Source: Pseudomonadota bacterium
GTDB taxonomy: Bacteria > Pseudomonadota > Alphaproteobacteria > Acetobacterales > Acetobacteraceae
Assembly: GCA_021805485.1 (NCBI GenBank)
Contig: JAJZFF010000605.1
Coordinates: forward strand, 1 to 5,563
Direction: 5' to 3'
Length of the DNA stretch: 5,563 nt
Both the position numbers and the translations under genes were made by a program. This document shows positions 1,964-5,364 of the stretch, one piece after another (position 1 is the stretch's first letter; each line of letters begins with the position of its first letter). Below the pieces are notes generated by a model, which saw only the letters and a program-made list of their open reading frames with translations, did not search any database and was not told where the DNA came from.

Positions 1964-2107
1964 ATGATGTCGCGTCTGAGTGCCGCGGCAAGATACATCC
2001 GCCGCGAGGATGCTGAACGGCTCGCCTGGCCGAAGGCGGCGCTGCTGATTTTTTGCGTCTCGGTCATGGCCTGGGCCGTCATTCTCGGATTGCTCATCTG
2101 GATCTGA
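1964..2107 (+). CDS. Putative single-pass inner-membrane microprotein (47 aa)
   Basis: I do not recognise the family. The ORF opens with tandem ATG codons (1964 and 1967) and ends at TGA 2105-2107; an in-frame TGA at 1949-1951 limits upstream extension. GAG at 1955-1957 is a modest ribosome-binding match, 6 or 9 bases from the two starts. Residues 1-24 form a basic, probably amphipathic segment (MMSRLSAAARYIRREDAERL then AWPK; net charge about +3). Residues 25-47 are an uninterrupted hydrophobic stretch rich in Ile, Leu, Val and Trp that ends at the C-terminus, predicting an N-in single transmembrane helix without a periplasmic domain. 36 of 47 third positions are G or C, consistent with coding in this genome. 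It is divergent from the amidotransferase and its 3' end overlaps the opposing glycosyltransferase gene by 14 bp. A role as membrane accessory or regulator of glycan assembly is inferred only from position; a spurious ORF remains possible. Confidence 0.6.
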   Translation: MMSRLSAAARYIRREDAERLAWPKAALLIFCVSVMAWAVILGLLIWI

Positions 2108-3191
2108 AGGCTCCGTTCGGTGCGAGGAGGCCGAGCCAGTCCGCCGTCATCCGCGCCACATCGAACAGCGTCTCGGCGCGGCGGCGATTGGCAGTGCCGA
2201 TCACGGAACCATCCATTGCCCCGGCCGCCCTGAAGGCGCCGGCCAGCGCGTCGTCGCTGCGGTCCGTCAGCAGTCCATGGTTCGGCTCCGCGACCATGGC
2301 GCGGATATCGCCGACCGCCGTCGCGATCACGGGCAGCCCGCTCGCCATCGCCTCGATCACGGAGAGCGGCATCTGCTCGGTGTCCGAGGATAGCGCGAAC
2401 AGATCCGCCGCACGATAGAGTGGCGCCGGATCGGCGACATCGCCGAGAAATTCGACATCCAGGGACAGGCGGGCCGCGAGGTCCCTCAGCGCGGCACCCT
2501 CGGGGCCGTCACCCGCGATGAGCAGGCGCGGCCGCGGCGTCAGGTCCGCCAGAGCGAGCGCGCGCAGCAGCCGGCCGAGATTTTTCTCCGGCCGCAGTCC
2601 GGCGACGCAGAGAACGGTCAGCCCGCTCCCCTCGATCCGGACCGGTGCCGCGGGATGAAAGCGCTCAAGGTCGATACCGTTGGCGATGTAGTGGAGGCGC
2701 TGCGGGGGCAGGCGCCAGACCTGCCGGGCAATGTCGTTCAGCGTTGCCGAGGGTACGACGATCTCGCTCCATCGCAGCGCGATCCGCCGTGTGAGGACGC
2801 GGCGGCGCAGCTGGCCCTGGCGCTCCTCCGGCCCGAAACCGTCCTCGGTGTGGATATGCTGGCGAATTCCGGCGAGCGGCCGGGCCATCGCCCATTCGAT
2901 CGAGCCCCAGTTGCTCGTGATCAGCAGGTCCGGGCCGATCTCCCGCAGCACCGCGCGGATGCGGCGCAGTCGCCCGGGTAGCGAGGGGGCCGGCGCGGGC
3001 GGATCGATGAAGGTGACGTCGAGGCCGGGATCAAGATGGCTCCGGCAGCCGGTCTGCCGGTCGAGGGCGACGATCGCGTGGCGGAACCGCGCGCCGAACC
3101 GGTTGGCCAGCGTCGCCATGCGCATCTGCGCGCCGCCGACGGCGAAGCTGGGGAAGACATGCAAGATCAGCATCGCGGCGGGCGGCGTCAT
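2094..3191 (-). CDS. GT4-family glycosyltransferase, last gene of the operon
   Basis: 365-residue GT-B fold retaining glycosyltransferase that transfers a sugar from a nucleotide donor, probably to a lipid-linked glycan at the cytoplasmic membrane face. The N-terminal acceptor domain starts with the beta-strand MLILHVFPSF and a glycine loop AVGGAQ (17-22). The C-terminal GT4 (Glycos_transf_1) domain shows NGIDLERF (171-178), LRPEKN (199-204), AGDGPEG (226-232) and EQMPLSVIEAMASGLPV (272-288), containing the EX7E pair E272/E280. The chosen start overlaps the preceding gene's stop as ATGA (3191-3188); an internal Met7 is an alternative. The open frame continues upstream to 3980, but that part is arginine-rich out-of-frame shadow of the previous gene. 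The short N-terminus with a GGAQ loop resembles the sugar transferases of XrtA-linked EPS loci, but donor and acceptor cannot be read from sequence. Its last 14 bases overlap the oppositely oriented microprotein ORF. Confidence 0.93.
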   Translation of the reverse strand: MTPPAAMLILHVFPSFAVGGAQMRMATLANRFGARFRHAIVALDRQTGCRSHLDPGLDVTFIDPPAPAPSLPGRLRRIRAVLREIGPDLLITSNWGSIEWAMARPLAGIRQHIHTEDGFGPEERQGQLRRRVLTRRIALRWSEIVVPSATLNDIARQVWRLPPQRLHYIANGIDLERFHPAAPVRIEGSGLTVLCVAGLRPEKNLGRLLRALALADLTPRPRLLIAGDGPEGAALRDLAARLSLDVEFLGDVADPAPLYRAADLFALSSDTEQMPLSVIEAMASGLPVIATAVGDIRAMVAEPNHGLLTDRSDDALAGAFRAAGAMDGSVIGTANRRRAETLFDVARMTADWLGLLAPNGAFRSR

Positions 3192-4306
3192 GTGCGGGTG
3201 GCGAGGGCGATGATGCGTGCCGCGTTCTCGTCCCACAGATAGGGGCGTGACAGCACTTCCGCGCGCGCGGCGCGGCTGAGGCGGGCGCGCAGCGCCGGAT
3301 CGGCGGCAAGCCGGCGCACCGCGCGCCACAGCGCCGCCCGATCGCCCGGATCGACCAGCAGCGCGGTACGCTCGTGGGTCAGGACCTCCCTGATATTGGG
3401 CTGGTCGGGGGCGACGATGGCGCAGCCAGCGGCCATGTATTCGAACAGCTTCAGCGGTGAGGCATAGGCGACGGAGGCGGGCTGCAGCGCGATATCGATG
3501 CCCGCGAGAAGGGCCGGAACCGCCTCGCGGTCGACAAGACCTGCGAAGCGCACCCGGTTCTCGATCCCGAGCGCGGCGGCGCGGGCCCGCAGGTCGGGCA
3601 GTGCGGGCCCGGTCCCGGCGATCACGAGGTCGAGCGGCAGGGTGCTGTCGCGAGCCATGTCGTCGATGATCAGGTCGAGCCCGTGCCAGGGGCGGACGAA
3701 GCCGATGAACCCGAGCGCAGGCGTGCGGGCGGCGGTGCGGTCCGGTTCGGGGAACCGGCCGATATCGACGCCGTTCGGCGTGATGGTGATGCGTTCGGCC
3801 GGTGCGCCCTCGGCCACGAGAATGTCGCCCAGCACGCGGGTGACGGCGAAAACCCGGTCCGCGGCGCGCCAGACGGCGCGTTCCCCGGCGCGCGCAACCG
3901 CTTTCAGGCGCAGGCTGCCATGCTGCGCGCGCTCGTCGGCCAGCGGGGAATTGACCTCGACGAAGTAGCGGCAGCCGCACAGCCGCGCGGTCCAGGCGCC
4001 GGCCAGGAAAAACAGGTTGTAGCGCTCGTAGATCAGGTCGGGCCGGAATGTCCGCGCCGCGCGCCAGAGGCGCCAGAAGGCGGGCAGATTATAGGCAAGT
4101 TCTGCCAGTTCGCCGATGGCGGCGGGTAGCACCCGGCGCAGCGCACCGGCCGCGCCGCCGGAATCGCCGAAGCGTGACGCGGCGTAGGCGCCGGGGCCGA
4201 CCACGAGCACCTCGTGCCCGGCCCGCCGGAACGCGGCGATCAGGTCCTCGAGATGGACGGACTGGCCGTCGCGCGACTGGATCCGGTGGCTGTAGAGAAT
4301 TTTCAT
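3188..4306 (-). CDS. GT4-family glycosyltransferase
   Basis: 372-residue GT-B glycosyltransferase, probably adding one sugar of the repeat unit. The N-terminal domain begins MKILYSHRIQSRDGQSVHLE, with the usual loop after the first strand, and later has PDLIYERYNLFF (89-100), a motif common in EPS-locus GT4 proteins. The donor domain shows TPNGVDIGRF (176-185), GFVRPWHG (202-209), AGTGPALPDL (230-239) and SPLKLFEYMAAGCAIVAPD (283-301). The second Glu of the EX7E motif is E289, while the position of the first is Tyr281, as in the subset of GT4 enzymes carrying a P-x-KLFEYMA motif. The start at 4306 overlaps the stop of the GNAT-like gene as ATGA; the stop in turn overlaps the start of the next glycosyltransferase. 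The in-frame extension to 4741 is shadow. No good Shine-Dalgarno is present, consistent with translational coupling. Substrate unknown. Confidence 0.93.
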   Translation of the reverse strand: MKILYSHRIQSRDGQSVHLEDLIAAFRRAGHEVLVVGPGAYAASRFGDSGGAAGALRRVLPAAIGELAELAYNLPAFWRLWRAARTFRPDLIYERYNLFFLAGAWTARLCGCRYFVEVNSPLADERAQHGSLRLKAVARAGERAVWRAADRVFAVTRVLGDILVAEGAPAERITITPNGVDIGRFPEPDRTAARTPALGFIGFVRPWHGLDLIIDDMARDSTLPLDLVIAGTGPALPDLRARAAALGIENRVRFAGLVDREAVPALLAGIDIALQPASVAYASPLKLFEYMAAGCAIVAPDQPNIREVLTHERTALLVDPGDRAALWRAVRRLAADPALRARLSRAARAEVLSRPYLWDENAARIIALATRT

Positions 4307-5364
4307 GAGGGAACGCCGCTCAACTGCTCTGGCCGTCTGCGGGCGCGGCGCAGCGCGCCGAGTCGCTCGCGGGCGAGCGTGGCGAGGCCGGCGGCGCTGC
4401 GCGGATTGATCAGCAGCAGTCCGGCCATGGTCCTGTGCCGGGAAACCCAGTCGCGCTTGTAGCGATCGTCGCCGCGCCCGAAATCGAGATGGTCCACGGC
4501 GTCGGCGGTGAGGATCGACCTGATCATCAGCGCGGTCAGAACCGTCCCGGGCGAGCGCGCCACGGCGCCCTCGACATGCGCCAGCTTGAGCAGATAGGCG
4601 CGGCTGCCGCTGATCGCCCAGTATTGCGCGGCGATCGGCCCGTCGGCATCGGCGAGAACTCCGGCGCGCAGCACTCCCGCACGCGCCAGGCCGCGCATGA
4701 CAAGTCCGTTGATTCCGGCGAAGGGCTCGGCGGGCTTCCATGATCGCTCGTAAACCGCGTCGAACTGCGCGACCGCCTGCTCAAGGCCGAGCGGTTCATG
4801 GTCGTGGTCGAGGCCGGACAGCACGCTCCCGAAGCCGAAGCGGCGAAACCGCAGCGCGCCGGCGGCCCGGATCCGCCGGCGGATGGTGTTGCGCAGCGCG
4901 CCCGGCCGGCCGGCCAGCCATCGCTCGAAATTGCCATCGACCGGCATGAACCAGTTGCTGAAATGATCGAACCGGCTGACGGCGAGGCCCTGCGCCGAGG
5001 CCGCCTGTTCCAGGTCGACGATGGCCGGATCGTCCGGGTCGAGCGCGTCGAGCCGGACGACGCCGCGCACATGGCTCATGAGATGGCGGGCGACGGCGGA
5101 CGGATCGCGACGAAGCGGCCGGAACGCGAGCGTGTAGTGGCTGGTCATCCCGGCCACTGGCACAAGCTTGCCCCCCCTTGCCCGGCACCATAGCGGCAGG
5201 GTCGCGCCGTCATGCGCGAGCGCTGCGGGAACCAGATCGCGCGGCCGCGCCGCTTTGGCGATCATGTCGAACCAGAGGAAACTGCCGAACAGGTCGCGCG
5301 CCGGATCGGCCCATCCGGTGGCGTCTGGACCGGGCCATGGCATGATGTCCGCCGCGCCGGTCAT
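4303..5364 (-). CDS. GNAT-superfamily CelD/BcsL (FemAB-like) protein
   Basis: 353-residue protein of the Acetyltransf_6/FemAB-like type, a tandem-GNAT fold family that transfers acyl or aminoacyl groups and recurs in EPS and exosortase-linked loci. Recognisable elements: an N-terminal half with SHYTLAFRPL (75-84) and WFMPVDGNFERWL (138-150); YERSWKPAEPF (205-215), where Ser-Trp-Lys is typical of the family; AAQYWAISGSRAYLLKLAH (245-263), the usual A-x-x-W strand followed by a K-x-A-H segment; SPGTVL (271-276), the acyl-CoA-loop-like part; and LDFGRGDDRYKRDW (293-306), the diagnostic D-x-G-x-G-D-x-x-YK element. The length fits FemAB-type XrtA-associated proteins (about 350). The start at 5364 is an ATGA overlap with the upstream glycosyltransferase; Met8 is an alternative. 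No signal peptide or membrane segment is evident, so it is probably cytoplasmic, modifying a glycan precursor. The real substrate is unknown. A G7 tract lies in the coding strand at 5177-5171. Confidence 0.85.
   Translation of the reverse strand: MTGAADIMPWPGPDATGWADPARDLFGSFLWFDMIAKAARPRDLVPAALAHDGATLPLWCRARGGKLVPVAGMTSHYTLAFRPLRRDPSAVARHLMSHVRGVVRLDALDPDDPAIVDLEQAASAQGLAVSRFDHFSNWFMPVDGNFERWLAGRPGALRNTIRRRIRAAGALRFRRFGFGSVLSGLDHDHEPLGLEQAVAQFDAVYERSWKPAEPFAGINGLVMRGLARAGVLRAGVLADADGPIAAQYWAISGSRAYLLKLAHVEGAVARSPGTVLTALMIRSILTADAVDHLDFGRGDDRYKRDWVSRHRTMAGLLLINPRSAAGLATLARERLGALRRARRRPEQLSGVPS

Follow-up and report, generated by a model that had tools for sequence, protein, structure and literature searches.

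Predicted single-helix membrane microproteins encoded beside exopolysaccharide and PEP-CTERM genes in Acidiphilium and related bacteria

CydX and AcrZ are single-helix proteins with an accessory role in larger membrane complexes (PMC4325964, PMC7267776). PEP-CTERM proteins and exosortases are, on our reading of PMC1569441 and PMC9850573, tied to polymer and floc formation, and the coupling of protein sorting to polymer export is, on the same reading, little known. A conserved microprotein linked both to polymer genes and to sorted proteins would offer a small, easily mutated handle on this coupling. By title and abstract, no publication was found on such a small component of the exosortase/PEP-CTERM system, in a search of largely open-access literature.

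The stretch of DNA analysed here (the window, 5,563 nucleotides) carries on its plus strand, at positions 1964 to 2107, an open reading frame (ORF) running from ATG to TGA and encoding 47 residues, which its frame, homologues, hydropathy and an AlphaFold model together describe as a predicted single-helix membrane protein. It was originally picked out as a rightward frame amid leftward glycan genes, and the flanking genes are indeed both on the minus strand. On one side lies asnB (3 to 1766), an asparagine-synthase-type amidotransferase gene (PF00733, PF13537) that is divergent from the microprotein gene and runs off the window; its best NCBIfam match is TIGR03108 (XrtA-type amidotransferase), at 646.6 bits and thus below the cut-off of 816.9. 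On the other side, tail to tail with the microprotein gene and overlapping it by 14 bases, stop codons included, is a GT4-type glycosyltransferase gene (2094 to 3191; PF13692, PF00534), whose best NCBIfam match, TIGR03088 (an XrtA/PEP-CTERM model), likewise scores below its cut-off. Beyond it on the same strand lie a second GT4-type glycosyltransferase gene (3188 to 4306; PF13692, PF00534), a gene for a FemAB-like GNAT-domain protein (4303 to 5364; PF13480), relatives of which adjoin some paralogues of the microprotein, and the end of another glycosyltransferase-like gene; together the minus-strand genes make up an exopolysaccharide block. At the orthologous locus of genome G233, which we take for A. 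multivorum, the first 300 residues of asnB are 95% and the glycosyltransferase 91% identical to the window, and the source of the window is therefore close to Acidiphilium. Rfam gave no match in the window or in the plasmid locus L083.

Besides the window's own entry, six database proteins matched the microprotein at 77% to 91% identity, close copies of it being present in Acidiphilium, and an 85% identical copy is already listed at NCBI as 'MULTISPECIES: hypothetical protein [Acidiphilium]', so that its description as unannotatable was wrong. Among 397 genomes of one bacterial family, that of Acidiphilium STC_15 (G001), a search with the single sequence gave matches in 28 at E<=0.01, from which five matches containing an in-frame stop (L095, L097, L106, L109 and L113) were then excluded; the weak matches free of internal stops were frames ending in the same motif. 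Profile A2 reached 108 of the 397 genomes at E<=0.01 and identified 57 places in 47 genomes at E<=1e-6, the threshold for membership, weaker profile matches not being counted as members, while in the wider class it matched 19 of 385 genomes, one of them strongly. STC_15 itself (L001), whose asnB matched best across the genome collection, has at the same site a diverged copy that the single-sequence search missed. A protein database search with the wider profile A3 returned 52 proteins including the window's, none with a Pfam domain and, where named, all hypothetical but one ('cobalamin synthase'); the genera named were Acidiphilium, Humitalea, Paracraurococcus, Roseomonas, Falsiroseomonas and Siccirubricoccus. 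Searches of Pfam and NCBIfam with 56 members, and of PDB sequences, gave no family for the microprotein, matches among phages came to just one phage (two records) at 34% identity and E 0.6, and no match in viral contigs was confirmed. Judged by its sequence relatives, the microprotein is a new family of predicted single-helix microproteins, absent from Pfam and NCBIfam.

The protein is laid out as a basic N-terminus (residues 1-21) followed by a predicted transmembrane helix from about residue 23 to residue 47, and the window's copy contains only one hydrophobic segment. The best 19-residue Kyte-Doolittle mean is 2.83, from residue 27, and on this scale the hydrophobic stretch reaches the final residue, as had been claimed; a recount likewise gave G or C at the third position in 36 of the 47 codons. 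In the AlphaFold model the helix spans residues 22-46 with a block pLDDT of 92-93, and an N-terminal helix (2-16) is modelled with low confidence. The N-terminus had been called basic and amphipathic, of which the first part stands (net charge +2 over residues 1-21) and the second is weak: over residues 2-19 the helical hydrophobic moment is unremarkable, being reached in 54% of shuffles, and the amphipathic look is confined to residues 1-14 (0.60). Conservation in the 56-row alignment A3 peaks at R19, W22, P23, A25, I29, S33, W37 and I40, which form a C-terminal signature, RLxWPxAxLxIxxxSxxxWxxI, encoded in the window by codons 2018 to 2083 of the plus strand (R19 L20 x W22 P23 x A25 ... I29 ... 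S33 ... W37 .. I40); the W, P, A, I and W columns are invariant or nearly so among the homologues. The conserved residues lie on a single helix face (permutation tests of helical periodicity on three stretches gave p 0.004, 0.007 and 0.02), and a helix that docks on another membrane protein would be expected to carry such a one-faced stripe. A basic flank of a membrane helix marks the cytoplasmic side (the positive-inside rule), and because a basic residue stands at most four positions before W22 in 50 of the 56 rows, an N-in topology is suggested for the microprotein. The designation as a membrane microprotein thus holds for a conserved protein predicted to cross the membrane once.

An ORF of this size calls for a comparison with chance. 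In 3000 Markov shuffles of positions 1767-2107, 76% contained an ORF of at least 47 residues in some frame, so the length by itself carries no weight, and only 0.03% gave an ORF with a comparably hydrophobic segment. Substitution was compared in pairs at 50% to 97% protein identity, and pN was smaller than pS in 30 of the 32 pairs listed (e.g., 0.03 vs 0.25 and 0.22 vs 0.40), pairs that are not independent and of which many share members. The synonymous bias that had been called for is thus present in these 30 and fails in the closest orthologue pair, the window against A. multivorum, where 10 differences comprise 1 silent and 9 changing ones; in the other exception (L121/L194) pN and pS tie. 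Pairs that include the broken copy on pACMV1 reach or exceed 1 in at least three of the pN/pS comparisons. We read the 9:1 excess as few events among hydrophobic helix residues that are freely exchanged, and it remains evidence against strict constraint. Together with an antisense frame at 1837-2097 that is likewise open, it is also what speaks for there being no gene here, only a frame that is open by chance or as a by-product of a control element or an antisense frame. This we consider extremely improbable: the motif, the frame and a stop just past the helix persist at about 30% identity, no alternative frame is consistently better, and pN is below pS in nearly all of the close pairs. Conservation in relatives settles the matter, and the ORF, as far as comparison of sequences can tell, is real and conserved, which confirms the initial observation.

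Between the divergent asnB and microprotein genes lies an intergenic region (1767 to 1963) that is AT-rich, as first noted, with a GC content of 0.405 over 1701-1900 and 0.385 over 1801-2000. Two blocks of it, 1892-1921 and 1934-1963, are identical in the A. multivorum alignment. An in-frame TGA at 1949-1951 limits the start of the microprotein, and GAG at 1955-1957 could, judged by eye, serve as a weak ribosome site. Promoter-like matches were found one per strand (2 found vs 0.5 expected); a TTGACA at 1893-1898, within a conserved block, was seen by eye and is absent from the list of promoter matches. The asnB and microprotein genes may share this control region. No sigma-54 box was found upstream of the microprotein in 1767-1963. 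At the PEP-CTERM genes of plasmid loci, sigma-54 matches had no mismatch in L083, one in L117 and two in L081 and L118, and the near-perfect boxes of L083 and L117 point toward the PEP-CTERM genes and away from the microprotein.

Neighbours were scored at all 57 places, which had been picked by sequence (profile A2) and not by context; the frames in them were located with profile A3, in which many of these frames are themselves included, and those E-values are therefore not independent. The results showed that an asnB start diverges from the microprotein, 77 to 413 bases away, in 35 of the 57 places, and that the tail-to-tail partner is a sugar epimerase in 32 and a glycosyltransferase in 2, which puts 34/57 in the window's arrangement. 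The conservation expected at the syntenic site, with the amidotransferase gene running away from the microprotein and the next glycan gene running towards it, was therefore found in relatives, and this case indicates that a 47-residue gene can be validated largely by conserved position. A PEP-CTERM gene adjoins the microprotein in 4/57 places. At least one of asnB, epimerase, glycosyltransferase and PEP-CTERM genes is present in 39 places, or in 41 when the FemAB-like gene is counted, and none of the tested neighbours is present in 16, of which at least one (L217) probably arose as a false match within a longer frame. Among 20 weaker profile matches that were fetched, 4 lie by asnB, 13 by asnB, epimerase, PEP-CTERM or FemAB-like genes, and 7 by none of them. 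A MOP-type flippase gene follows asnB in all four loci annotated and has matches in many more; the gene after asnB was at first guessed to be an exosortase, a guess that was rejected in favour of this flippase, itself below the NCBIfam cut-off. The recurrent neighbours are thus asnB, the sugar epimerase, the MOP-type flippase and PEP-CTERM genes.

Some members have other surroundings. In L185, L207, L226, L230 and L232 the microprotein lies without asnB beside a FemAB-like GNAT gene related to that at 4303-5364 of the window, a recurrent context; L131 has two members in tandem (9433-9579 and 9957-10091), far from any tested polymer gene; and in the paralogues L219 and L221, which are tail to tail with a gene for a spermidine-synthase-domain membrane protein, the helix is followed by 8 to 9 extra residues.

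Exosortase (PF09721) was detected in 134 of the 397 genomes, and its distribution was strongly skewed, with 41 of the 47 genomes that have the microprotein against 93 of the 350 without it (Fisher p 7e-16, kinship ignored). In 21 of these 41 genomes the exosortase gene lies within 50 kb of the microprotein on the same contig, and in A. multivorum the two are 1.54 Mb apart. Six genomes have the microprotein and no detected exosortase; in G203, G288, G361 and G258 it adjoins asnB, and in G245 and G369 it does not. The original interpretation is borne out in part: its exopolysaccharide link is supported by genomic context and is here widened to exosortase and PEP-CTERM genes. The microproteins could instead make up a large family whose members act more generally in the membrane (in stress, lipid or membrane-protein quality control) and are found in polymer loci by coincidence. 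Such a reading would account for the 16 places without a tested neighbour and for the paralogues beside the spermidine-synthase-like membrane protein gene, a NUDIX gene and others; the exosortase association argues against it, as does the presence of one or more of the tested polymer or PEP-CTERM genes next to 41 of the 57 places, and it keeps an appreciable though minor share of the probability.

Copies were also found on five plasmids. In four of these (A. cryptum pACRY01, A. multivorum JZ-6, pACMV1 and Acidithiobacillus ferrooxidans YQ-N3) the microprotein gene lies close to a PEP-CTERM gene and runs away from it, and around the copy on pACMV2 no PEP-CTERM gene is annotated within 6 kb. In L187, L198, L233, L240 and L241, of which L240 and L241 are near-identical and three come from the weaker match set, a PEP-CTERM gene lies 235 to 267 bases upstream of the microprotein on the same strand. 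PF07589 was confirmed in all 6 PEP-CTERM neighbours scanned. That the microprotein is a plasmid-type toxin or maintenance peptide captured by the chromosome would agree with its small size and hydrophobicity and with toxin-antitoxin genes near some of the plasmid copies, and yet we regard this as very improbable, given that many genomes have chromosomal copies at a single conserved site, that one particular face of the helix is conserved, and that no antitoxin-like partner is retained alongside.

The plasmid loci showed several further features. In L118 (pACMV1, about 9129-9340) a tandem duplication of 23 bases has shifted an unannotated copy, which looks broken. A 711-base stretch that includes the microprotein (locus positions 5990-6700) is 100% identical between L082 and L083, one a plasmid of Acidiphilium multivorum and the other of Acidithiobacillus ferrooxidans, pointing to a recent transfer across classes or else to a mixed culture. 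About 500 bases downstream of the microprotein are conserved in L081, L083, L117 and L118; a second gene was considered there and dropped, with no Pfam match and a frame broken in L117, and the stretch is possibly a non-coding or replication element.

To relate the microprotein to its commonest neighbour, 60 of the 93 exosortase genomes without a strong microprotein match were examined, TIGR03108 was matched in 45 and 30 asnB loci were obtained. The microprotein was at the site in 3 of these loci (L270, L272, L274) and not in 27, the latter including 3 that could not be judged (L258, L264, L266), and it is therefore tied to some asnB lineages and not to all. The asnB tree comprised 43 rows with the microprotein and 30 without, of which 26 came from the 30 exosortase-genome loci and 4 from 79 other asnB loci; L264 was without an asnB start, L272 repeats L227, L270 and L274 were counted with the microprotein rows, and for L258 and L266, with fewer than 160 bases upstream of asnB, the label of absence is unsafe. 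Of the rows with the microprotein, 37 form one supported clade, and the window falls in a second clade of 8 rows, 6 with and 2 without it. Presence requires 3 changes on the tree, compared with a mean of 23.5 after shuffling. That presence follows the asnB tree, that divergent asnB is the commonest neighbour (35/57) and that four genomes have the microprotein and asnB with no exosortase detected would all fit a membrane tether or regulator of AsnB, keeping the enzyme where lipid-linked sugars are amidated. We give this a rather small chance, as the PEP-CTERM-linked copies (on plasmids and in L187, L198, L233, L240 and L241) lack an adjoining asnB and 27 tree rows have asnB and no microprotein (upstream sequence enough or none).

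We give about an even chance to the reading that the microprotein is an accessory or regulatory helix that packs on one of the membrane proteins in the exopolysaccharide/exosortase (PEP-CTERM) machinery, which is its likeliest partner because the neighbourhood is shared with polymer, exosortase and PEP-CTERM genes. The microprotein would be translated and inserted as a single pass in the inner membrane, its short basic N-terminus on the cytoplasmic side and its C-terminus facing outward; R19-W22-P23 would fix the depth of the helix at the cytoplasmic edge, and the stripe A25-I29-S33-W37-I40 would pack against a multi-pass partner, which may be the exosortase, the flippase or some other membrane protein in this pathway and which the microprotein would stabilise or tune. 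Counting against this proposal are the 9:1 excess in the closest pair, the 1.54 Mb distance in A. multivorum, the six genomes without detected exosortase, the neighbourless places (16/57) and the lack of the microprotein beside asnB in many exosortase genomes. In a bolder version, which we hold to be unlikely, the microprotein is a so far undescribed small subunit of this machinery, or a factor that sets its specificity: by docking on the exosortase or flippase it would link the export of polymer to PEP-CTERM sorting, and the plasmid copies would serve the plasmids' own PEP-CTERM protein.

Three described systems offer a comparison. The YmiA family (NF000536, PF22868) also consists of small single-helix proteins, but of the 56 members searched a single one matched each model, below threshold (E 0.06 and 0.16), and by this measure the microprotein does not belong to it. 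PEP-CTERM sorted proteins, as described in PMC1569441, share with the microprotein, which is found beside them, a C-terminal hydrophobic segment, and differ in the position of the basic residues, which in the microprotein precede the helix and are not clustered after it (a mean of 0.63 K/R per member after W37, and none in the window's copy); the PEP motif before the C-terminal helix is absent from the alignment, which has WPxA instead, and PF07589 matched none of the 56 members. CydX and AcrZ bind a big membrane complex, whereas the microprotein, which has no Pfam or NCBIfam match, is linked to polymer and PEP-CTERM genes; like them, it is small and, by prediction, essentially one transmembrane helix.
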